DNA from: Pseudanabaena sp. PCC 7367
Lineage (GTDB): Bacteria > Cyanobacteriota > Cyanobacteriia > Pseudanabaenales > Pseudanabaenaceae
NCBI RefSeq assembly: GCF_000317065.1
Contig: NC_019701.1
Coordinates: forward strand, 620,001-684,000
Length of the DNA: 64,000 bases
Reading direction: 5' to 3'
In this document: in pieces, positions 37,973 through 56,943 of the stretch
Numbering within the stretch: the first letter of the stretch is position 1
Layout: every line of letters begins with the position of its first letter
Program-made: the position numbers and the translations under genes
Notes under the pieces: model-generated
Database searches by the model: none
What the model was told of the DNA's origin: nothing
Seen by the model: only the letters and a program-made list of their open reading frames with translations

Positions 37973-40036
37973 CTAGGCGAAGAAGACGATGTCGCTGTTG
38001 CCAACGGTTGGCGCAGGCGGGATGAAACCAGTAGGAGCAACGAACAAAGGTGCTCCAGCCAAGGTCGCAAATTGCTCGGCAGCAATTGGGCCAGCACCAT
38101 CGGCATCGTACCAGAGGTCGCCAGTAGCAGTGTTGTACAGGAAGAAGTCGGCCACGATCGTGCTGGTGGTTACACCAAAGAAGGCTGCGATCGGTGCATA
38201 AGGTGCCACATTACCAGGGCTCACGCCAGGAGCGGCAGTAAACTTGGTCAAGTAGTAACCATCAGGACTGGTTAGGTTGTAGAAACCGGCAAAACCAGTG
38301 GTTGGCGATACATCACTAATTGTGGCAGGCTCGTTACCGAAGCCAGTAGTGTTGATGGCAATTACATCATTACCATTAGCATCAAAGTCAGTGATGATAT
38401 CGATACCATCGGCAGGGCTGTTGTACGCAAAGTAGTCAGTACCTGCGCCACCAGTGATGGTGTCATTACCAGCATTACCGAACAAGGTGTCGTTACCAGC
38501 GTTACCAAAGATTTCATCGCCAGCAGCATCACCGTAGACGGAGTCATTACCAGAATTACCAATCAAGGTGTCAGCATCGTCACCACCACGGATGGTGTCA
38601 GCACCGAGGTTACCGTCGATCGTGTCTGCGCCAGTACCACCTAACAAGGAGTCTTGACCAAAGCCACCATCAATGGTGTCATTACCAGCATCACCCAAGA
38701 CAGTGTCATTACCATCGTTACCCTTCAGGGTATCGTTGCCGTCACCACCAGAGATGCTGTCGAAACCGTTCTCACCAAGAACAGAGTCATTACCGGTACC
38801 ACCAGTAATGGTGTCATTACCATCATCACCAGCGATGGTGTCATCACCAGCACCACCATCTAGGGTGTCGCCGACATCAGGAATGCTACCACCACCGAAG
38901 CCGTCGATGCTGTCATTGCCATCTTCACCGAAGATTTCATCAGCACCAGCGTTACCCAAAGCAGTGTCATTACCAGCACCACCGAAGATCGTGTCATTAC
39001 CGGACTGACCTTCGATGAAGTCAAAGCCAGCAGCAGCCATCATGGAATCATCACCAGCACCACCAGCAAGTGTGTCATCGTTGACGGTACCTTCGATCAA
39101 CTCAGAACCGGGAGTACCGGTTAGGTTTACACCAGCGCGGCCAGGGATGTTACCACCGACTACGAAAGTAAAGGCAGTGCCGTCGCCATTTACAGCATCA
39201 GCATTGGAGCTGTTAGCAACCACACCGTTGATTTCTACATCGTTGCTACCGAAACCAAGTAGATCGGTAACACTAACATTTTCGATCGTGATGGTTTGAC
39301 CAGCTACACTTTCAGGGGCACTCAGGCCAGGAGTAGAAGCACTACCAGTGAAGGTTACTACTACATCATCACCGGATTGAGTGAAGGTTACGGTTGCGTC
39401 CTTATCGAGCTGGTTGATGATCAAGACATCAGCAGTACCAGAACCAGCGCGGAAGTCGTTGATGGTGTCAGTACCACCAAATCCACCAACGGTATTACCA
39501 GAGAAAGTGCTGGTAGGTTCGAAGATGAACTCATCAGAATCATCACCACCAGAGAGGATTGCGCTACCAGCGCCACCGATCAACTGGTCTTCACCGGAAC
39601 CACCGAAGATCAGGTCGGTAGAAGTAGTACCAGCAAACAAGGTGTCGTTACCCTTGTCACCATTCATGATGCTGGCTTCAGTACCACGGGAAATCAAGAT
39701 ATCTTCATCTTGACCACCGAACATGGTGTCGCCACCAATTTCGGTTGAATAAAGAACGTCATTACCCTTGTTACCACTTAAGGTGTCACCACCGAAACCA
39801 AAAGTAGAACCAAACAGGGTGTCACTGCCGGAACCACCGAACAGGCTATCGTTACCAGAAGCAGTGTCAGTGCTGCTATTTGCTTGGATTAGGTCACTAC
39901 CACTATTACCGTTCAGGGTGTCATTACCAGGACCACCGATAATAGTATCGTCACCTTCTAGACCGCGAACCTCATCACCTTCAGCGGAAGCGGCTTCACG
40001 GAGATCATTAAATTCTGTACCAACTATTAGAGCCAT
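37973..40036 (-). CDS. RTX calcium-binding protein (hemolysin-type repeats)
   Basis: 687 residues, very acidic. It has two blocks of GGxGxDxUx nonapeptide repeats at about 25-165 and 310-545, for example DTIIGGPGNDTLNGNSGSD, GGSGEDQLIGGAGSAILSG and GAGDDTIAGDDGNDTITGG. Between them lies a Ser/Thr/Val-rich beta region. After the second block come DYFAYNSPADGIDIITDFDA and a C-terminal domain with GDLWYDADGAGP, a form often seen at the end of cyanobacterial RTX proteins. The repeats form calcium-stabilised beta rolls outside the cell. There is no N-terminal signal peptide; the C-terminal signal of type 1 secretion is the expected route. A GAGGAG ribosome-binding site precedes the ATG. No enzymatic domain is visible, so a surface-layer, matrix or motility role is likelier than a toxin. 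Confidence 0.92.
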   Translation of the reverse strand: MALIVGTEFNDLREAASAEGDEVRGLEGDDTIIGGPGNDTLNGNSGSDLIQANSSTDTASGNDSLFGGSGSDTLFGSTFGFGGDTLSGNKGNDVLYSTEIGGDTMFGGQDEDILISRGTEASIMNGDKGNDTLFAGTTSTDLIFGGSGEDQLIGGAGSAILSGGDDSDEFIFEPTSTFSGNTVGGFGGTDTINDFRAGSGTADVLIINQLDKDATVTFTQSGDDVVVTFTGSASTPGLSAPESVAGQTITIENVSVTDLLGFGSNDVEINGVVANSSNADAVNGDGTAFTFVVGGNIPGRAGVNLTGTPGSELIEGTVNDDTLAGGAGDDSMMAAAGFDFIEGQSGNDTIFGGAGNDTALGNAGADEIFGEDGNDSIDGFGGGSIPDVGDTLDGGAGDDTIAGDDGNDTITGGTGNDSVLGENGFDSISGGDGNDTLKGNDGNDTVLGDAGNDTIDGGFGQDSLLGGTGADTIDGNLGADTIRGGDDADTLIGNSGNDSVYGDAAGDEIFGNAGNDTLFGNAGNDTITGGAGTDYFAYNSPADGIDIITDFDANGNDVIAINTTGFGNEPATISDVSPTTGFAGFYNLTSPDGYYLTKFTAAPGVSPGNVAPYAPIAAFFGVTTSTIVADFFLYNTATGDLWYDADGAGPIAAEQFATLAGAPLFVAPTGFIPPAPTVGNSDIVFFA
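38440..39080 (-). repeat. RTX nonapeptide-coding repeat block
   Basis: About 640 bp of imperfect 27-bp units (GTG/ATG-TC-ATTACCA-like on the plus strand) encode successive GGxGxDxUx repeats. Plus-strand frames here give long Ser/Pro-rich phantom proteins that are not genes. Confidence 0.85.
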
Positions 40037-47244: not shown

Positions 47245-50200
47245 ATGACCTCACCAAACTCAAATCCAGATCCAGGTAATCCATCTAGGCATGGCGATCG
47301 CCTGCATTCCATCAATCCTCAAGCAAATGATGCTAATGATGCTAATGATCCTGAGGACATTAATCCCCTGTCTGGGCTGATTGGCACCCTGTCGGATCTG
47401 CAAGTGGTAAAAATGCAGCAGCGACAGCGGGCTAACCCTGGCCAGATCTCACCTATGCCTGCACCAGAGCTAAATGCTGATTCCGTTGAGTTCAGCCAAC
47501 CCCAACCTGGCGATCGAGATTTTCAACTTGATCAAGCCTCCAATGAACTTGATGAACCCCTGGAGCCTAATCAAAGAAAGCAGAAGGCTCACCCTTACAC
47601 CAATCTGGTTAAACGGTTCAGGGCAAACTCAAATCAAGTCAGGCCAACAGCTCAAGCGTCACAGCATCCAGCATTAACGACTGAGCCAGAACAGCCCAAT
47701 CCCTTTGAGTCAGACAATCTTGATAGTTTGGCTGATCTGGACAATCTAGGCGAGCAAAGCAATGGCAATCTACCGGAAATTGTTTATCAACCCAATTATG
47801 ATCGCTCTGAATCAGTCCACCCCCAGGAGAATTCCCCGCTTGGGCTAGAAGATTTAGAGGCTCTGGGCGATCTAGATGATTTAGGTGCAATAGACCACTT
47901 AGACCACGATCAAGATTCAACTCCAAATGCACCCACTACTCCAGCCACACCGGTAAGCGATTCAGCTAAGCCGATCGAACCCACCCAGTCAAATTCAACC
48001 CATGCTTCAACTGATTCTTTAGCCAGTGGTGCGCTTGATGCATTGTTCCAAGACCTCGATCTTGGTTCAGCCCAGACTGGTTTTGAGTTTGATAACAATC
48101 CAACTAATCAAAATGACCAAAACAATGCTCAGATCACCGATCAACTTACCGATCAACTTAGTAATGAGCTAGACGATCTGCTCAATGGCTTAAATAGTTT
48201 AGGGAATAGTTTAGGGGCAGCTTCAATATCAGAGTTGAAGATAGAGCCTGAAGCTGGCGATCGCCCCCCTGCTAATTCCCCAGACCAAAATCAAGCTCAA
48301 AATCAAGTTAGGACTAGTTCACTAATTGGAGATCAAAATATCAACAATCCGCCGATTAACAAGCAACCTAAACCAGGAACCGCTGGTGGGGCAACTGCTC
48401 AACCATTGCTAAATGAGGCTGGTGAACCGATCGGGTTATTGCGTGATTTGCTAGGCAGTGCCGCCGAAGATGAAGTTAGCCTGATCGAGCAAAGACTCGC
48501 ACAAATTACCAACAAAGTTGAACAGCTTGATTATCAGATTAATACACCGCCCGATACCTCACAAATTGATGGGCAATTTGCCAACATTGGTGGTCAGCTT
48601 GCCGAGATCGACGGTCAGTTTGCCAATCTGGAAAACCAACTGGAAAGCAGATTAGCCACGCTCCAGAACACCATCCAGAACCACCCTAAAATAATTGAGC
48701 TGGATGGCCGCCTGGGCGATCTACAAAGTGTAGTGGCCGATCGCTCTGCCCTCGAAGCCCTCGATCGGCAGGTGGAATTAATCAACCAGGAAATAGCCCA
48801 AATTGCTGATATCAAACTACTCAAGCAACAGCTAGAGAGTCTGAGCCAGAATGTCTACCAGCGCCAGGACATTGACATGGTGATGCAAAAGCTGTTGGAG
48901 GTACTGCGGCAGCATGGTAATTATCCCAAACGTTTAGCCTTGCTGAAACGGCGCTTAGTTCATCTGGAACAGCGGATCAATGAACCCCAGGAACTAATTG
49001 AATTACTGCTGCCGATCGTAAATGAGCTACTACGTCGCAAAATTTCGATGGCCAGGGATGAATTTGCTAAATCACTAGCCACTGTTGTAGATGAAATGAT
49101 CCACGACAAAATTGAAGAAGACCGCGAGGCAATGAGTATTGCGATCGCACCGATTCTGGCGGAGGCAATTATCCATCGTTCGATCGCTGCGCCCGGCGAA
49201 TTTGCCAGTGCGATCGCGCCGGAACTGGATGTGGCGATCCGCGAGCAGATTAAAAATAATGCCAACTCCATGGTCGATGCCCTCTATCCGATCATTGGCA
49301 ATACGATCGCCAAGTATATGGTGGAAGCAATTCGGGTCATTAATGAAAAGATTGAGAATGCCTTTAGCCCCGAAGGGATTATGCGCAAAATCCGCGCCAA
49401 GGCACAGGGGGTTTCGGAAGCAGAATTGATTTTTCAAAGTGCCATGCCCAGCGTGGTGCGGGCAGCATTTTTGATCCACAAAGAATCAGGGCTGGTGATC
49501 GCCGAAACCCAACCGGACGGCGAGCAACAACTGGAATCAGACATGCTCGGTGGCATGCTCACGGCGATCCGTAGTTTTGTGAATGATTGGGTTTCAACTT
49601 CTGAGCACAACTCCGAACTGGATGAAATTGACTATGGCCGATCGAAAATTATGTTGGAAGTGGCCGGGTTTTGCTATCTGGCGGTAGTAGTGGAAGGCGA
49701 ATCAGGGCGATCGCAAATTGCCAAAAAGATGCGCCAGGTGATGGCCACGATTATCCAAAAATACAGCCGCCTGATCGAAAATTTTGAAGGCGATCCCACC
49801 ACCATTCCCAGGCAGGTTAAGAAAACCCTGGATCAACTGCTGGATAAACCGGCCACTGAGGAGAATTTCAGATCGCCTCTCTATGGCATTGGCATATTAA
49901 TCCTATTGTTGCTTGGTTTGGCAACGATTCCCTGGTGGTTTACCTGGCGACGCGCCAAAGCTGTTAAGGCCGTAGATCAAGCCCTTGATAATGCACCAGC
50001 CCTGTCGGTTTATAACCTGGATGCCGAAATCAAGGGGGGTGAATTGGCTTTAACTGGACGAGTGCCAACGGAGTATTTACGAGCCCAGGCGGAAGATGTG
50101 GCTACGCAAGCCTTACTTACTAGCACAACCCAAACCCGATTCGAGCTGGTCAATAATATTGTGGCCGTAGAAGTACCGCCCGATCCCACTGTGGTCGCCC

Positions 50201-50733
50201 AGGAAGTAGAACGCACCGCTGCGAGCCTAAACCAATTTGAAGCGATCGCCATCACCGTAGAATTTAACGCCAGCGAAGTTAATCTAGCCGGTACGATTGG
50301 CACGGCTGAGCAAGCCCAATTAATCAGCCAGTCATTTGCCCAGATCCCTGGTGTGACGAAGGTGGTTACCAGTTTGCAGGTGGTAGTGCCGGAGATCCCA
50401 ACCCTCACCACCAAAATCTTTTTTGCCCTAGGCGATAGCACCATTACCACCGCTGAAGATCCCAAGATCGCCCAGGTTAAGAATTTTTTAGTCAAATATC
50501 CCAACTATAAACTTAGAATTATAGGCAGCAGTGATCCGGTGGGTAGCTTGGCTAACAATGAGCAACTGGCCTGGGATCGGGCAGAAACTGTGAAAAATGC
50601 CCTGATCGCTCAGGCAATCGATCCGCAACGGTTAACAACCGCAGCCGTTGCCCTAGGGAGCCTAAATCGAGGTGATCAACCTTCCTGGCTCGATCGCCGC
50701 GTGGAGTTTGAAGTAATTGCGCCATCTGAGTGA
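47245..50733 (+). CDS. Longin/roadblock-like, BON and OmpA-domain envelope signalling protein
   Basis: 1162 residues. Residues ~1-400 are low complexity (Asn, Asp, Gln, Pro, Leu) with ANDAND microrepeats. Residues ~410-560 are coiled coil with repeated QLAEIDGQFANLENQLESRL-type heptads; ~560-720 are helical. Residues ~725-835 look like a longin/roadblock-type domain: AAFLIHKESGLVIAETQPDG, MLGGMLTAIRSFVNDWV, then RSKIMLEVAGFCYLAVVVEG. A single membrane helix lies near 878-898 (GIGILILLLLGLATIPWWF). After it come two BON-like segments (about 905-1045) and an OmpA-like peptidoglycan-binding domain (FFALGDSTITTAEDPKIAQV, IIGSSDPVGSLANNEQLAWD). The N-terminus should be cytoplasmic and the C-terminus periplasmic. 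The next genes are a Ras-like GTPase, a cyclase and a kinase. Longin/roadblock domains are known GTPase partners, so this is a plausible anchor for the GTPase. Confidence 0.8.
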   Translation: MTSPNSNPDPGNPSRHGDRLHSINPQANDANDANDPEDINPLSGLIGTLSDLQVVKMQQRQRANPGQISPMPAPELNADSVEFSQPQPGDRDFQLDQASNELDEPLEPNQRKQKAHPYTNLVKRFRANSNQVRPTAQASQHPALTTEPEQPNPFESDNLDSLADLDNLGEQSNGNLPEIVYQPNYDRSESVHPQENSPLGLEDLEALGDLDDLGAIDHLDHDQDSTPNAPTTPATPVSDSAKPIEPTQSNSTHASTDSLASGALDALFQDLDLGSAQTGFEFDNNPTNQNDQNNAQITDQLTDQLSNELDDLLNGLNSLGNSLGAASISELKIEPEAGDRPPANSPDQNQAQNQVRTSSLIGDQNINNPPINKQPKPGTAGGATAQPLLNEAGEPIGLLRDLLGSAAEDEVSLIEQRLAQITNKVEQLDYQINTPPDTSQIDGQFANIGGQLAEIDGQFANLENQLESRLATLQNTIQNHPKIIELDGRLGDLQSVVADRSALEALDRQVELINQEIAQIADIKLLKQQLESLSQNVYQRQDIDMVMQKLLEVLRQHGNYPKRLALLKRRLVHLEQRINEPQELIELLLPIVNELLRRKISMARDEFAKSLATVVDEMIHDKIEEDREAMSIAIAPILAEAIIHRSIAAPGEFASAIAPELDVAIREQIKNNANSMVDALYPIIGNTIAKYMVEAIRVINEKIENAFSPEGIMRKIRAKAQGVSEAELIFQSAMPSVVRAAFLIHKESGLVIAETQPDGEQQLESDMLGGMLTAIRSFVNDWVSTSEHNSELDEIDYGRSKIMLEVAGFCYLAVVVEGESGRSQIAKKMRQVMATIIQKYSRLIENFEGDPTTIPRQVKKTLDQLLDKPATEENFRSPLYGIGILILLLLGLATIPWWFTWRRAKAVKAVDQALDNAPALSVYNLDAEIKGGELALTGRVPTEYLRAQAEDVATQALLTSTTQTRFELVNNIVAVEVPPDPTVVAQEVERTAASLNQFEAIAITVEFNASEVNLAGTIGTAEQAQLISQSFAQIPGVTKVVTSLQVVVPEIPTLTTKIFFALGDSTITTAEDPKIAQVKNFLVKYPNYKLRIIGSSDPVGSLANNEQLAWDRAETVKNALIAQAIDPQRLTTAAVALGSLNRGDQPSWLDRRVEFEVIAPSE

Positions 50734-50939
50734 ATCATGATCGACATCGTTCCGCTAGCATGGTAGAAAAGTGTGTGGGGATACACATCGACGAACTAGT
50801 AACCGACTCATTTAAATGTGAAAGATTTTGCTCCTGGCAAAGTACCTACCTCGATCGGAGCGATCGCAATCGCTATAATTGCCACAGACTAGATGTGATT
50901 GAAAAGCGGCAATTGCTACTCACAACCAAATATTTATGA
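50730..50939 (+). CDS. Possible small coupled protein between OmpA-like and GTPase genes
   Basis: 69 codons starting with GTG at 50730, which overlaps the TGA of the OmpA-like gene (GTGA), and ending at a TGA that overlaps the GTPase ATG (ATGA). These are the classic 4-nt overlaps of coupled genes. The protein would be basic, with four Cys (CVGIHIDE, FKCERFCSW, YNCHRLD). An ATG follows at codon 11 (MVEKCVGIHIDELV). No family is recognised. A TATAAT at 50874-50879 inside it, 57 bp before the GTPase, might instead be a promoter, with no good -35 seen. The frame could be chance, since a 207-bp gap allows it. Confidence 0.3.
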   Translation: MNHDRHRSASMVEKCVGIHIDELVTDSFKCERFCSWQSTYLDRSDRNRYNCHRLDVIEKRQLLLTTKYL

Positions 50940-51463
50940 CTACGGTATCTAAAAAAATCTGTATGATTGGTGATTTTGCGGTGGGAAAGACTTCCTTAAT
51001 CCGCCGTTTTGTCGATCAGGCCTTTAGCGATCGTTATCTTTCTACCGTAGGTGTAAAAATATCGCGTAAATTGGTGGATTTAGCTGAATCCAGCAAGTAT
51101 AAATCTGCCCAACTATTGATTTGGGACTTGGAAGGACAAACCAAATTCAAGTCGATCGCGCCCAGCTATTTACAAGGAGCTAGTGGTGCAATTATTGTGG
51201 CCGATGCTACCCGCCCCGAAACGATCGCTAGTATTGCTGGCCATGTGGAATTGTTTTTGAGTATCAATCCCAAAGCAAGTGTGAGTATAGCCTTTAATAA
51301 GATCGATCTGGTTGATCCACCTAAACTAGCCCATTTGCAAGAAATGTTGCAGTTGCCCAACCAGCTGCGCCGCCATAATACCTATGACACCTCTGCTAAA
51401 ACTGGCAAAGATGTTGACTTGATTTTCCAAAAATTAGCCCATGAAATCGTAGAATCTGCATGA
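50936..51463 (+). CDS. Ras/Rab-like small GTPase
   Basis: 175 residues with all five G motifs: G1 GDFAVGKTS (12-20), switch I Thr37 in STVGVKIS, G3 DLEGQ (64-68) with the catalytic Gln present, G4 NKID (121-124), and G5 TSAK (152-155). It is a minimal Ras-fold GTPase of the prokaryotic MglA/Rup/Rab-like kind, without a lipidation Cys at the C-terminus. The intact Gln68 suggests normal GTP hydrolysis. It would switch between GTP and GDP forms and bind an effector; the adjacent longin-like/OmpA protein and the two paralogous PAS sensors are the obvious candidates. Its TGA overlaps the ATG of the cyclase gene (ATGA), so translation is probably coupled. Confidence 0.93.
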   Translation: MTTVSKKICMIGDFAVGKTSLIRRFVDQAFSDRYLSTVGVKISRKLVDLAESSKYKSAQLLIWDLEGQTKFKSIAPSYLQGASGAIIVADATRPETIASIAGHVELFLSINPKASVSIAFNKIDLVDPPKLAHLQEMLQLPNQLRRHNTYDTSAKTGKDVDLIFQKLAHEIVESA

Positions 51464-54273
51464 ATCCGGTTCTCAAGAAATTTTTTGCTAGCCGATCGAT
51501 CTGCTACCTGGTGGTGGACCGCGATCTGGTGATTAAAGAAATTTCCCCCGGCCTTGAACGTTTTGCGGATACCACTGAACTGCTGCAAGTTGGCGAAGAC
51601 GTGCGGCTCAGCTTCCCAGAATTATATGGCATGGAAGCATGTATGCAAGAAATTTGCCAGCGGCAGCGCTCCAGCTTTGAGTTGGTTGGGGTTTCTAGGG
51701 CAATACAGCCAATTGACAATAGTGAGGGGGAAGACAATTTAAGCGTCAGCATCGATAACATCGATCGAGATACAGAAAGTCAGCCAGACCAGTTGACTGC
51801 AGATACTTCCAGATCAGATAGATCAGATAGGCGATCGTCCCAATTGCCCCGTACTGAGTTTTATATGGACATTTTTATCAGTCGGTTTGAACAGGAAGAA
51901 CTGAATCGATCGGGATTCACCAATCTGGCGGACAACCTGGTTGATGGCTTGATTATTCTGTTTGAAGATGTATCCGATCGGATGGAAATCGAGCAAAAGC
52001 TGATGCAAAGCTCCAATGAGGCCAATCTTTTATTAGACGCTCTGTCTACCTCAAATAGCTATGTAGAAACGATTCTTAGCTCCATGGCCGATGCCATGAT
52101 TGTCACCACTGCTTCTGGCATGATTAAGGTGGTCAACGCAGCGGCACAGCAATTATTTGGCTATCCAGAAGCGGAGCTAGCAGGACAGCACATTTCTACC
52201 TTAATTGCGATCGCCGCTCCCATGGCCAAGATTGAGACACAATCAGCGAAACAAGACAATCAAAATATTTCCCCTGCTGGCGCTCAAGCACAACCTGGTC
52301 AATCGGCTCTTCACCCTCAACCAGAAGCCCCCAACCCAATTGCCGCCGAGGATGATCAGCAGGCATTTTTTTTTCCCGCTCAAAATCTGAGGCAATCAGC
52401 CTTTGAGACAACCTGCCGCACTAAGTCTGGCAAAAAAGTAGTGATTTCCTTTTTGCGATCGACCGTTGAACTAGAAGATAGCTTTGGCTTGGGCAATCGC
52501 CAGGACATTATCTATGTGGGGCGGGATATTACTGCCTGGCAAGCAAGACAGCAACGCATTACAATCCAGCATGAAGTAACCAGGATTCTGGCCGAATCAA
52601 TTACAATCGAGCAGGCTGCTCCCCAGTTACTAGCGGCAATCTGTAAGCATTTAGATTGGGACATTGGTGAGTTTTGGATTGTCGAGCGCGATCGCAGTCT
52701 TACCAATCAATCCAATCAATCGAGAGCTCAAACGATCAGGCGGAATCTGCGCCAAGCCAGGGTATTGCATTGCACTGAAATGTGGCACAGTGACAAAATC
52801 GACGCTAGAGACTGGCAGCAGGAAACCTCCCACAGGGACTTTGCGATCGGCGAGGGATTGCCAGGAAAAGTTTGGGCACAGACCAATTCATTGTGGATGG
52901 CTAATCTAGCAAACTCTAAACCCGGCAATGATCTTAGTGATACTGCAAATATCACTGAGATATCAGAACGAGCTACGATCGCATCTGAGTTGGGATTGCA
53001 ATGTGGATTTGGCTTCCCGATTCAAAGCAGCATTGCGGTTTGGGGCGTAATTACTTGCTTTAGCCGTGAGGTGCGCGATCCTGACTTAGATTTACTCCAA
53101 ATTGGCGCTAACATTGGCAACCAGATTGGTTTATTTATCGATCGCAAGCGAGCGGAGATGGAACTGCGGGAGAGCGAGGAAAGATACCGCGATCTGTTTG
53201 AAAGTGCGATCGACTTGATGTTTGAGAACTCCAGTGATTTAATCCAGTGGGTTAGTGCAGAAGGACGACTGGTGTATGTGAATCGTGCTTGGCGTAATGT
53301 GTTGGGCTATAGTGAAACTGAAATCGCCGAGCTTTTGTTTGTAGATGTCGTCCATCCCGATTGCCGCGATCGCTATCGCCAACTACTGGCTGGTTTAAAC
53401 GTGACCACCACTGATCCGGCTAATGTAGCGAGCGAGGCCAAGCTGGAGTTGATTACCAGTGATGGTAGTAAGGTGTTTGTGGAGGGCACAATTAATTGTA
53501 AATATGCCGATGGCAGATTGGTGGCAATTCGTGCCATTTTCAAAGACATCACCGAACGGTTAATTGCGGAGGCCGCCCTGCGCCAGCAAAAGGAGCAAAC
53601 CGATCGCCTACTGCTCAATATTCTCCCCGCCACCATTGCCGATCGGCTTAAGCAAGAAACCAATATTTATCTAGCCAATGAAACTTCGGTGGTGCCCCAG
53701 GGTAGTGTAATTGCGGAAAGTTTTAATGCGGTTACGGTCATGTTTGCGGACATTGTCAATTTCACCGAAATTGCCAGCACCCTTAATCCAATCGAACTGG
53801 TGGGTTTGCTCAATCAAATTTTTTCCAGCTTCGATCGCCTCTGTGAACAATATGGCCTAGAAAAAATTAAAACCATTGGTGATGCCTATATGGTGGTAGG
53901 AGGACTCCCCACACCAAGTCCTGATCATGCGGTGGCGATCGCCACTATGGCTTTGGCAATCCAGTCTCAACTAACCCAACTTAACCAGCAGACTAAGCGC
54001 AACTTGCAAATGCGGATCGGCATCCATAGCGGGCCAGTGGTTGCCGGCGTGATTGGCCTCAAAAAATTCATCTATGATCTGTGGGGGGATACGGTCAACA
54101 TTGCCAGCCGGATGGAGTCCCAGGGGATCGTTGACAAAGTCCAGGTCTCAGCTTCAACCTACGAATTATTACAGCATCACTATTTGTTTGAAAAGCGGGG
54201 CACTATTAATATTAGGGGCAAAGGAAATATGCCCACCTACATTCTGCTGAGCCCAAAGCCCAACAATAACTAG
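51460..54273 (+). CDS. PAS/GAF-containing class III adenylate cyclase
   Basis: 937 residues. Residues ~1-85 are a sensor module (MNPVLKKFF, then LVIKEISPGLERFAD and VGEDVRLSFPELYGME) shared with the kinase gene downstream. After an acidic insert, a PAC-like end (LIILFEDVSDRMEIEQKLMQ) leads into a PAS domain at about 205-355 with another low-complexity insert. A GAF domain follows at about 375-565 (ILAESITIEQAAPQLLAAIC) and a PAS at about 585-705. The catalytic domain is at about 735-925: metal-binding FADIVNFTEIA, IKTIGDAYMVVGG with the adenine-selecting Lys, and YDLWGDTVNIASRMES with the Asp expected for ATP rather than GTP. It makes cAMP, in the cytosol. It has no membrane segment. It overlaps the GTPase stop by 4 nt. 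Confidence 0.9.
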   Translation: MNPVLKKFFASRSICYLVVDRDLVIKEISPGLERFADTTELLQVGEDVRLSFPELYGMEACMQEICQRQRSSFELVGVSRAIQPIDNSEGEDNLSVSIDNIDRDTESQPDQLTADTSRSDRSDRRSSQLPRTEFYMDIFISRFEQEELNRSGFTNLADNLVDGLIILFEDVSDRMEIEQKLMQSSNEANLLLDALSTSNSYVETILSSMADAMIVTTASGMIKVVNAAAQQLFGYPEAELAGQHISTLIAIAAPMAKIETQSAKQDNQNISPAGAQAQPGQSALHPQPEAPNPIAAEDDQQAFFFPAQNLRQSAFETTCRTKSGKKVVISFLRSTVELEDSFGLGNRQDIIYVGRDITAWQARQQRITIQHEVTRILAESITIEQAAPQLLAAICKHLDWDIGEFWIVERDRSLTNQSNQSRAQTIRRNLRQARVLHCTEMWHSDKIDARDWQQETSHRDFAIGEGLPGKVWAQTNSLWMANLANSKPGNDLSDTANITEISERATIASELGLQCGFGFPIQSSIAVWGVITCFSREVRDPDLDLLQIGANIGNQIGLFIDRKRAEMELRESEERYRDLFESAIDLMFENSSDLIQWVSAEGRLVYVNRAWRNVLGYSETEIAELLFVDVVHPDCRDRYRQLLAGLNVTTTDPANVASEAKLELITSDGSKVFVEGTINCKYADGRLVAIRAIFKDITERLIAEAALRQQKEQTDRLLLNILPATIADRLKQETNIYLANETSVVPQGSVIAESFNAVTVMFADIVNFTEIASTLNPIELVGLLNQIFSSFDRLCEQYGLEKIKTIGDAYMVVGGLPTPSPDHAVAIATMALAIQSQLTQLNQQTKRNLQMRIGIHSGPVVAGVIGLKKFIYDLWGDTVNIASRMESQGIVDKVQVSASTYELLQHHYLFEKRGTINIRGKGNMPTYILLSPKPNNN

Positions 54274-54510
54274 TTAAAAATGACCTAGATCGATGGGGGA
54301 ATCTAGATTAATATTGATGAATCTAAGCCTCCGGCTAAATTTATGAATATAATTTGTAAATCCAGATGATCATCTGCTGACGCTACTTAAGATTGGTTCA
54401 TGTAAAGCAAACAGGTAGACTTTTATAGTGGTTATTACCTAAAGTGATAGAGCATAATCATTGCATCTGCCTGCCCTGCCAATTTAACTGCTTAGCCCTT
54501 GATTAGGAGT

Positions 54511-56943
54511 ATGAACCCCCTTTTAAAAAAGCTCCTAGCTCCACGCCGAATGGAGTACTTGCTCCTCGATCAAAATTTAGTTATTCAAGAAGCTTCATAC
54601 GGTGTTGAGCGCTTTTCTGAACCCCACGAGAATACTCTGGTGGGGCAGGATGTGCGTATGGGTTTTCCAGAGCTATTTGGCCTAGAAAGCACCTTGCAGG
54701 AAATTTTACAGGGGCAAATTAGCAACTTTGAGCTAAAAGGCATTGGGCGATTTACCGAGGAGCAACCTAAGCTTTATTTTGATCTTTATATCGTTTCTGA
54801 TCCCGAACCAGAGAACGATCGGATTAAGCTGGTAATTTTCTTTGAGGATGTCACCGAAAGGATGGTGATGGAGCAAAATCTGTCCCAACGGAACAAAGAA
54901 ACTACACTCCTGCTTGATGCCCTGACCACAGCAAAAGATTACCTTGATAAAATCATCACTTCGATCGCCGATGCCTTGATTGTGACCACCGAAACCGGCA
55001 TCATCAAGAGCCTCAACCCCAGTGCCGAAGACTTATTTGGTTATGAAGAAGCTGAGCTAACTAACCAACCAATTGGTACTTTAATCGACTCACGTAGCTT
55101 TATTAACACTGTTCACCAACGCAATCAGAAAAGCAGCGATCGGCGTGGACAGGGGCAGTTACTCAGCGGTGAAGAGGTAATTTGCAAAACCAAATCTGGG
55201 CAGAAAGTGCCGGTAGCTTTTTCCTGCTCGTCAATTCGTGCCACTAGCAAAAATGGCCGCGACATCGTTTATATTGGCCGCGATATTACTAAGCGTAAAC
55301 AGGCAGAAGAAAGATTAAGGGTTGCCCAGCAACAGGCTGAACAGGCTTCCCAGGCTAAAAGTCTATTTTTGGCCAATATGAGTCATGAAATCCGCACACC
55401 GATGAATGCGGTGCTGGGAATGACGGAACTAATGCTGGGCACTGATTTAACCCCAGAGCAATTTGACTTTGTCGAAAATATTCGGATCAGTGGTGATTCA
55501 CTGTTAAATTTAATTAACGAAATCCTTGACCTCTCTAAGCTAGAGGCAGGGGAAATGCAACTGGAGCGCCTATCTTTTGATCTGGTGTCCTGCGTGGAAG
55601 AGGTAGCAACCTTGCTGGCAGCCCAGGCTCACAACAAAGGCTTAGAAATTACCACCTTGATCGATCCAGCGATCCCTTGGCGGGTATCGGGGGATAGTGC
55701 ACGATTGCGCCAGATCCTGACTAATTTATTGGGTAATGCAATTAAGTTTACCAATGCTGGCGAAGTGGCGATCGAGGTGAATATCCTCTCGCAACAACAC
55801 GATTTAATCAAACTAGCATTTGCAGTAATTGATACGGGCATTGGCATTTCCCAGCCCAACCAGGACAAACTATTTATGCCATTTTCCCAGGTCGATGCTT
55901 CAACCACCAGGCGCTATGGTGGCACTGGATTGGGGCTGGCAATCTGTAAGCAATTGGTTCATTTAATGGGAGGTGAAATCGGCGTGGAAAGTGAGCTTGG
56001 CGAGGGAACCAGGTTCTGGTTCAATTTACCCTTTGATCTGCACCAGGCAGCCCAACCAGATTTTAATCAGTTGTCGTTTATCCTGCATTCTTCACTAGCC
56101 GGTAAGCGCTTTCTGGTGGTGGATGATAACGCCAATAGCCGCCAGGCGATCGTGCGGCAGGCTGCCAACTGGGATGTGGTGGTGGCAGAAGCAGACAATG
56201 GCGGCTCAGCCTTGGCCATGCTTCGGGAGTCGGTGCAAACGGAGGCTACTTATGATCTGGTGCTGATCGATAGCGTACTGGGTGATATGAGTGGTCTGGA
56301 TTTAGCGGCGCAAATCAAAGCTGAAGAGGCTCTTAGTAATTTACAGCTAGTGTTTATAACCAGAAGTAATCAAGGTAGTTTGGCGCGATTGGCGCTCGAT
56401 CGCTATTTTGCTGACCACATGACCAAACCAGTTAAGCTGAGCAAGCTAGCGGAAACACTCAGGCATGTTTTAAATCTTGATTTAGATCCTACCCTTTCGG
56501 AGATTCTACCCGCAGCAGAAGTAAAGCGGCAACAGCAACGCACCAATCTAAAAATTTTGTTAGCCGAGGATAACCTGGTCAATCAAAAGGTGGCACTAAA
56601 AATGCTTGAGAAATTGGGCTATAAGGCTGATGTAGCCCAGAATGGCCAGCAGGTATTGCAATTGATGGCTCGCACTAACTATGACTTGATCCTAATGGAT
56701 TGCCAAATGCCGCTCCTGGATGGTTATGCGACGACTCAAGAAATTCGCAATCGGGAAGGAGAAAATCGCCATACGGTGATTGTGGCCATGACCGCCAACG
56801 CAATGAAAGAAGATCGCCAGAAATGCCTGGATGCTGGTATGGATGACTATATCAGTAAGCCCGTTAGTAAAAAGGATATTCAAGACATTCTGGATGAATG
56901 GAGCAGTATGATTACGCCATTGGATCAATTGGAATCAGATTAA
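54511..56943 (+). CDS. Hybrid histidine kinase with two receiver domains
   Basis: 810 residues from the ATG at 54511. An upstream in-frame TTG (54499) is unlikely, because the paralogous cyclase starts at the same point (MNPLLKK versus MNPVLKK). The sensor module (about 1-85) and following PAC/PAS region (about 110-265) match the cyclase. HisKA has the phosphorylated His near 292 in LANMSHEIRTPMNAVLGMTE. HATPase_c is at about 390-505 (NLLGNAIKFTN, DTGIGISQ, GTGLGLAICKQL). Receiver 1 starts FLVVDDNANSRQ, with Asp in LVLIDSVLGDMSG near 586. Receiver 2 starts ILLAEDNLVNQKVAL, with Asp in LILMDCQMPLLDG near 729. There is no Hpt domain, so a separate phosphotransfer protein or response regulator is needed. 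Gap to the cyclase gene: about 237 bp. Confidence 0.93.
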   Translation: MNPLLKKLLAPRRMEYLLLDQNLVIQEASYGVERFSEPHENTLVGQDVRMGFPELFGLESTLQEILQGQISNFELKGIGRFTEEQPKLYFDLYIVSDPEPENDRIKLVIFFEDVTERMVMEQNLSQRNKETTLLLDALTTAKDYLDKIITSIADALIVTTETGIIKSLNPSAEDLFGYEEAELTNQPIGTLIDSRSFINTVHQRNQKSSDRRGQGQLLSGEEVICKTKSGQKVPVAFSCSSIRATSKNGRDIVYIGRDITKRKQAEERLRVAQQQAEQASQAKSLFLANMSHEIRTPMNAVLGMTELMLGTDLTPEQFDFVENIRISGDSLLNLINEILDLSKLEAGEMQLERLSFDLVSCVEEVATLLAAQAHNKGLEITTLIDPAIPWRVSGDSARLRQILTNLLGNAIKFTNAGEVAIEVNILSQQHDLIKLAFAVIDTGIGISQPNQDKLFMPFSQVDASTTRRYGGTGLGLAICKQLVHLMGGEIGVESELGEGTRFWFNLPFDLHQAAQPDFNQLSFILHSSLAGKRFLVVDDNANSRQAIVRQAANWDVVVAEADNGGSALAMLRESVQTEATYDLVLIDSVLGDMSGLDLAAQIKAEEALSNLQLVFITRSNQGSLARLALDRYFADHMTKPVKLSKLAETLRHVLNLDLDPTLSEILPAAEVKRQQQRTNLKILLAEDNLVNQKVALKMLEKLGYKADVAQNGQQVLQLMARTNYDLILMDCQMPLLDGYATTQEIRNREGENRHTVIVAMTANAMKEDRQKCLDAGMDDYISKPVSKKDIQDILDEWSSMITPLDQLESD

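Follow-up and report, generated by a model that had tools for sequence, protein, structure and literature searches.

The described system closest to the present cluster is the Group 1 Rup neighbourhood, which was published with the same composition in 2014 by Wuichet and Sogaard-Andersen (PMC4316618). In the sections of that paper on these systems, Rup GTPases were grouped by tree, taxonomy and neighbourhood, with Cyanobacteria in Group 1; the domain on the membrane protein was left unidentified, the outputs were 'typically' GGDEF/EAL proteins or histidine kinases, the Group 1 GTPases were without the G3 Gln, and no member had been experimentally characterized as of that paper. Part of a second source gives Rup as the group nearest to Rab/Rho/Ras/Ran (PMC4915359). 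Beyond PMC4316618, no later characterization of Group 1 Rup systems was found in the literature searched, and no mention of OmpA or of a GTPase was found in the available part of a paper on a tapered-filament gene. The 2014 report corrects an earlier reading made from the DNA letters alone (the sequence-only reading), to which no described system of this composition was known.

The window analysed here is a stretch of 64,000 nucleotides of Pseudanabaena sp. PCC 7367 (NC_019701.1); all positions are those of the window and all features of the cluster lie on its plus strand. At 47245-56943, four ORFs follow in series, in agreement with the sequence-only reading. In the order 5' to 3', from the ORF list and Pfam, they encode an OmpA/longin membrane protein (47245..50733, 1162 aa; ORF, Pfam, hydropathy and a model of residues 650-882), a Rab-like (Rup-like) small GTPase (50936..51463, 175 aa; Pfam, family profile against PDB sequences, motifs), a PAS-containing class III cyclase (51460..54273, 937 aa; Pfam) and a PAS-containing hybrid histidine kinase with two receiver stretches (54511..56943; Pfam, start by homologue alignment). 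As in the Group 1 Rup loci, so far as PMC4316618 describes them, a Rab/Ras-like GTPase stands beside a membrane protein that has a transmembrane helix, OmpA and a domain without assignment, and beside a signalling output whose N-terminal region is conserved; the published loci also have a coiled-coil gene nearby.

The gap between the OmpA/longin gene and the GTPase gene is 202 nt, so a single transcript is not assured, and promoter-like and terminator-like matches (14 and 10 found, 14.8 and 10.2 expected) were in no excess over shuffles. The GTPase and cyclase genes overlap by 4 nt, with the cyclase ATG over the GTPase TGA (ATGA), as had been read before. The listed start of the kinase is TTG 54499; ATG 54511 fits the homologue alignment and is probably the true start, since many relatives begin with MN there, and counted from it the gap between cyclase and kinase is 237 nt. 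The flanking genes of the cluster encode a phosphoglycerate mutase, by reading of its sequence, and a molybdopterin oxidoreductase (Pfam). Elsewhere in the window, at 37973-40036 on the minus strand, an ORF is rich in GGxGxD-like repeats and looks RTX-like by eye.

The OmpA/longin protein consists of a long N-terminal region without a Pfam match, a helical stretch, the longin domain, one predicted transmembrane helix, BON and OmpA. The predicted helix (residues about 877-899, 49873..49941) is the hydropathy maximum, its residues being overlapped by all of the top three hydrophobic 19-residue windows, and a hydrophobic stretch C-terminal to the longin domain was also present in the relatives' alignment rows seen. 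The BON region (best stretch 908-955, two stretches) and the OmpA domain (1059-1136), together at 49966..50652, scored 42 bits and 40.2 bits in Pfam, both above cut-off, in line with the BON-like and OmpA-like domains proposed earlier. A second protein of the host genome (G000:C2:1054316-1055152) matches the periplasmic half only (query 183-465, 35% identity) and is without the longin part.

Pfam assigns nothing to residues 736-870 of the OmpA/longin protein (49450..49854). From an AlphaFold2 model, Foldseek and VIA-align they are predicted to be a longin domain, a fold familiar chiefly from membrane-traffic proteins of eukaryotes. The model of residues 650-882, built from 62 relatives, had a pLDDT of 78.8 as a whole and a pTM of 0.65, with 10-residue block means of 68-97 in the longin region. 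Its predicted fold order of two strands, a helix, three strands and two C-terminal helices (E88-96, E102-106, H116-136, E144-148, E151-158, E161-168, H173-196 and H207-217 in model numbering) is the longin topology. Foldseek against the PDB gave 13 matches at E <=0.001, including Sec22b, Ykt6, VAMP7, AP-2 sigma, the COPI zeta subunit and a TRAPP entry, and the matches also include Mon1-Ccz1. In VIA-align, all 127 of the 127 Sec22b residues were aligned to the model (Z 15.0, rmsd 2.5), followed by VAMP7 (Z 14.2), Fuzzy (12.8), Ykt6 (12.7) and a Lokiarchaeal longin (11.1), at a sequence identity to eukaryotic longin structures of 6-14% in the rows listed. No related PDB sequence was found for this domain in a sequence search of the PDB, and none of the 25 listed of 49 Pfam families for the 62 members was a longin or roadblock family. 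The sequence-only reading had proposed a cytoplasmic longin/roadblock-like domain at residues 725-835; the model bears out the longin half of that description and shifts the predicted borders to 736-870.

It is very improbable that this domain is instead a roadblock domain of the MglB kind and the system a variant of MglA/MglB. Roadblock and longin have a common core, and the model does align to roadblock chains, with Z 10.6 over 101 residues for the S. avermitilis roadblock 3kye_C and 10.4 over 107 residues for 3t12_C, from an MglA-MglB entry, which we take to be the MglB chain. The scores of Sec22b, VAMP7 and Ykt6 are higher, however, and these alignments run through the C-terminal helix, which according to part of PMC10933270 marks longin where roadblock has an N-terminal helix. 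In the model this longin-type helix is residues 207-217, with block pLDDT of 96 and 90. PF03259 (roadblock) is moreover absent from the Pfam matches of the OmpA/longin protein up to E 1, and no PF03259 protein was found above cut-off in the host genome (best E 0.88). Roadblock as a label for residues 736-870 was dropped for longin, on Z 15.0 for Sec22b versus 10.4 for the MglB-type roadblock.

The window GTPase is a single-domain protein with a Ras match of 93 bits in Pfam. Its motifs are GDFAVGKTS at 12, WDLEGQ at 63, NKID at 121 and TSAK at 152, so that G1, G3, G4 and G5 are kept, together with the T of G2 in STVGVK, and the earlier description as a complete Ras/Rab-like GTPase is sound. With the GTPase family profile, Rab and Rab-like proteins take all of the top 60 places among 901 PDB sequences. 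Within the host genome (4.89 Mb, two contigs), the window GTPase is the one strong Ras match, and three weaker matches lie in longer open frames. The catalytic Gln noted in the sequence-only reading is indeed intact (WDLEGQ) and is atypical, since among 106 unique relatives the G3 residue is H in 46, S in 30, Q in 15, R in 5, E in 5, N in 3, C in 1 and K in 1. Because Gln is rare among the relatives, it should carry no mechanistic weight for the family. Judged by these sequences, the absence of the G3 Gln in Group 1 given in PMC4316618 holds as a tendency, not as a rule. The idea is also put forward in that part of the paper that a Gln of the output N-terminal module makes up for the missing G3 Gln (PMC4316618). 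By a rough regular expression, a QQ pair was found in this module in 11/12 outputs beside Q-type GTPases and in 64/100 beside non-Q GTPases, where the remainder includes 11 without a regex match and probable misreads. The pair is kept even beside GTPases with their own Gln, a pattern that lends no support to simple compensation by the output Gln and does not refute it either.

For the cyclase, the class III match PF00211 reached 231.5 bits (catalytic domain, residues 752-930, 53713..54249), with PAS above cut-off and a GAF match below its cut-off. The cyclase motifs KIKT and YDLWG look adenylate-type by the usual rules; the enzyme named 'adenylate cyclase' in the sequence-only reading is a class III cyclase and a putative adenylate cyclase. 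The kinase has PAS, HisKA, HATPase_c and two receiver stretches, all above Pfam cut-offs, as expected of the hybrid histidine kinase proposed before. Residues 1-240 of the cyclase and 1-183 of the kinase are 39.6% identical by BLAST, so the N-terminal modules of the two outputs are related, as had been suggested. The kinase copy (54511..55008) was modelled as a PAS fold with a signalling helix (AlphaFold2, pLDDT 89.8), which matched the photoactive yellow protein domain of Ppr with Z 10.4 and rmsd 3.3 over 102 aligned residues, and from this model the modules common to cyclase and kinase are predicted to be PAS domains. The conserved N-terminal region of the published outputs contains an invariant Gln (PMC4316618), for which Q122 and Q126 of the module, conserved at >=90% in 68 sequences, are the candidates.

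The gene association recurs among the cyanobacterial genomes searched. In 244 genomes, a single-sequence search found the GTPase in 31, residues 697-1162 of the OmpA/longin protein in 31, and both in 30. In 386 genomes, a profile search found the longin part in 45, the GTPase in 45 and both in 44; 46/52 longin places are followed on the same strand by a GTPase at a distance of up to 5 kb, three further rows being excluded as short fragments of the same proteins, and a longin lies upstream of 46/50 GTPases. A finer comparison took the best 80 of 550 relatives, hence the closest, as named loci; they have 81 GTPase ORFs. A longin or OmpA ORF was found <=4 kb upstream of 71/81 of these, and 67/81 start <=213 nt from its end; in two of the ten without such an ORF, the GTPase start is no more than 220 nt from the end of its contig. 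Within 4 kb upstream, 56/81 have a coiled-coil ORF, and an output with the common N-terminal module lies <=3 kb downstream of 67/81. In the window, no coiled-coil gene adjoins the cluster; a homologue, 55% identical, is unlinked in the host genome at G000:C2:1441635-1442189. The four-gene association is not chance. The sequence-only reading had offered gene order beyond this strain as its own check, and the order recurs both in these genomes and on the rhizobial plasmids described below.

The exceptions to the pairing are few. Six of the 52 longin places have no GTPase neighbour, one of them in G195, a genome without a GTPase match at cut-off, and the longin protein may therefore have a GTPase-independent role; 4/50 GTPases have no longin neighbour. 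In G203, G039, G099 and G195 (L100, L101, L102 and L103), a second, longer (~1200 aa) OmpA/longin paralogue has no GTPase neighbour. GTPase-cyclase pairs can also occur by themselves: G045 and G033 (L088 and L089) each have a second GTPase with a PAS-cyclase of its own behind it and no longin gene in the vicinity. In a divergent class of five loci from one family (L094-L098), the coiled-coil protein, the longin protein and the GTPase are kept, the GTPases being 39-45% identical; a kinase match is present in 3/5 loci, and the L095 longin protein also has OmpA in Pfam. In this class, ORFs of 127-135 aa directly follow the GTPase in L094, L095 (L095:6497-6904), L097 and L098; the L095 one has no Pfam match.

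Outputs at the relatives' loci comprised 39/73 with HisKA, 21/73 with a class III cyclase and 6/73 with GGDEF at 1e-5. The 73 were kept after four proteins >1300 aa and ten near-duplicates had been dropped, in a set made up of proteins on the same strand whose N-terminal module starts by residue 60. The enzymes vary while the GTPase and the longin protein stay together, as would suit a switch that has PAS-gated enzymes as exchangeable outputs. A reverse arrangement is unlikely; in it the PAS enzymes would regulate the GTPase as their output, and the longin/OmpA protein would act as effector to position envelope machinery. Small ligands and light are common inputs of PAS modules. A GTPase output downstream of a histidine kinase has also been posited for conservons, to which Group 1 Rup systems are called analogous in the part of PMC4316618 concerned. 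The constancy of the GTPase and longin protein beside enzymes that differ between loci is better explained by a fixed switch with interchangeable outputs.

The longin/OmpA protein and the GTPase might also make up an envelope complex for positioning or tethering, with the enzymes just co-regulated neighbours. This would suit the 14/81 GTPases in the named loci that have no N-module output <=3 kb downstream, the two divergent loci L094 and L098 that have no kinase or cyclase match beside the GTPase, and the role of MglA/MglB as a polarity module given in PMC4316618. We regard it as rather less probable still, since a related N-terminal module precedes both histidine kinases and cyclases at these loci and the window has the cyclase ATG overlapping the GTPase TGA.

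Genome searches covered Cyanobacteria, and other taxa come from plasmids alone. In a tblastn search of the GTPase against plasmids, four records matched (one Nostoc, two Rhizobium and one Mesorhizobium). The plasmids of Mesorhizobium sp. WSM1497 and Rhizobium sp. 007 carry, in order, genes for the coiled-coil protein (profile E 3e-29 and 1.7e-28, respectively), a longin-TM-OmpA protein (4.1e-57 and 1.3e-57), the GTPase and a class III cyclase, whose N-terminal module match is weak (7.2e-5 and 1.4e-4). OmpA was confirmed by Pfam in the Mesorhizobium longin protein, BON was not reported by Pfam in the L188 longin/OmpA protein, and the longin region on the third rhizobial plasmid is 89% identical. 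By eye, the rhizobial longin/OmpA proteins (L187:4920-7985, L188:4921-7986) have several near-identical repeats of ~130 residues between the transmembrane helix and OmpA.

The preferred reading is a GTPase-longin-output mechanism, as a variant of the Group 1 Rup kind of module, and as a whole it is given a probability of about 0.55. From the arrangement we infer a topology in which the OmpA domain would anchor the membrane protein to peptidoglycan and the longin domain would be displayed on the cytoplasmic face of the inner membrane. There it would bind the Rab-like GTPase and control its nucleotide state or membrane placement, in the manner of the longin and roadblock domains that act on Rab, Rag and MglA GTPases. 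Given a longin on a TM/OmpA protein beside the GTPase, and no PF03259 protein above cut-off, the longin is most simply the regulator or docking site of the GTPase. Longins occur in SNAREs and adaptor subunits too, so the fold alone is no proof of GTPase regulation. The direction of regulation would be from envelope to output: the active GTPase would engage the N-terminal PAS module common to cyclase and hybrid kinase, and the envelope or positional state would be turned into cyclic-nucleotide and phosphorelay output, with the coiled-coil protein as a further candidate component encoded elsewhere in the host genome.

Mutual information between GTPase and longin was computed on 91 unique pairs (effective number 56), with a top z of 5.0, and is not decisive because the sequences share ancestry; 11 of the top 30 covarying pairs involve GTPase residues 51-59, a variable-length loop, and the others are scattered. 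Motility, polarity and wall stress, named in the sequence-only reading, are candidate roles of the cluster. A role in motility is plausible, since external cAMP stimulated gliding in Spirulina platensis, as given in part of PMC4284465. The family NF038350 (taxis_HmpF) is present in 84/244 genomes, including all 31 GTPase genomes (p 5.6e-17, ignoring phylogeny). As 53/84 of the NF038350 genomes are without the GTPase and Synechococcus elongatus has NF038350, this association is no proof of a motility role.

Compared with Group 1 Rup systems as published (PMC4316618, in the sections cited), the window cluster differs in that the G3 Gln is kept in its GTPase, the coiled-coil gene lies elsewhere in the host genome, a class III cyclase is among the outputs, and the membrane-protein domain is a predicted longin. 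It is filed as a variant of the Group 1 Rup kind, not as a confirmed member, because the coiled-coil gene is unlinked and the G3 Gln is present. What appears to be new here is the model-based longin identification, class III cyclases as a recurrent output, the same four genes on rhizobial plasmids, the unlinked position of the coiled-coil gene in the Pseudanabaena genome, and a G3 Gln that the relatives compared seldom have. If a longin is truly conserved beside a bacterial Rab-like GTPase, the cluster would be a simple operon for genetic tests of Rab-longin pairing and a first functional handle on GTPases that are called experimentally uncharacterized in the part of PMC4316618 concerned.

In MglA/MglB of Myxococcus and Thermus, as here, the small GTPase is paired with a member of the roadblock/longin superfamily. 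That member, MglB, is a roadblock protein in its own right; the predicted longin of the present cluster is fused to a transmembrane helix, BON and OmpA. Actinobacterial conservons (CvnA-D) likewise encode a small GTPase, a roadblock-superfamily protein and a histidine kinase together, but the present cluster has no separate roadblock protein and its outputs differ, and the text on conservons in PMC4316618 mentions no OmpA protein. Regarding origins, parts of the sources hold that eukaryotic longins derived from prokaryotic roadblock-type domains (PMC3521125), that the roadblock/longin families are thought archaeal in origin with roadblock proteins sporadic in bacteria (PMC10933270), and, in a table, that 'Longin/Roadblock' is jointly present in Bacteria (PMC4917890); an earlier report of bacterial longins was not found in a partial check of the open-access literature. 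In a more tentative reading, rather less likely than not, the Rab-like GTPase and longin regulator as bacterial operon partners could be the equivalent of the Rab-longin machinery of eukaryotes (TRAPP, DENN, Mon1-Ccz1), and might even be related to it; in filamentous cyanobacteria the pair would couple cell-wall state or position to signalling by cyclic nucleotides and phosphorelay. The structural matches of the longin model in VIA-align include TRAPP subunits, Fuzzy and SNARE longins. As with the eukaryotic Rab-acting longins (TRAPP core, DENN modules, Mon1-Ccz1, Fuzzy-Inturned), a Rab-like GTPase has a putative longin partner; unlike them, the present longin is bacterial and fused to a transmembrane helix, BON and OmpA.
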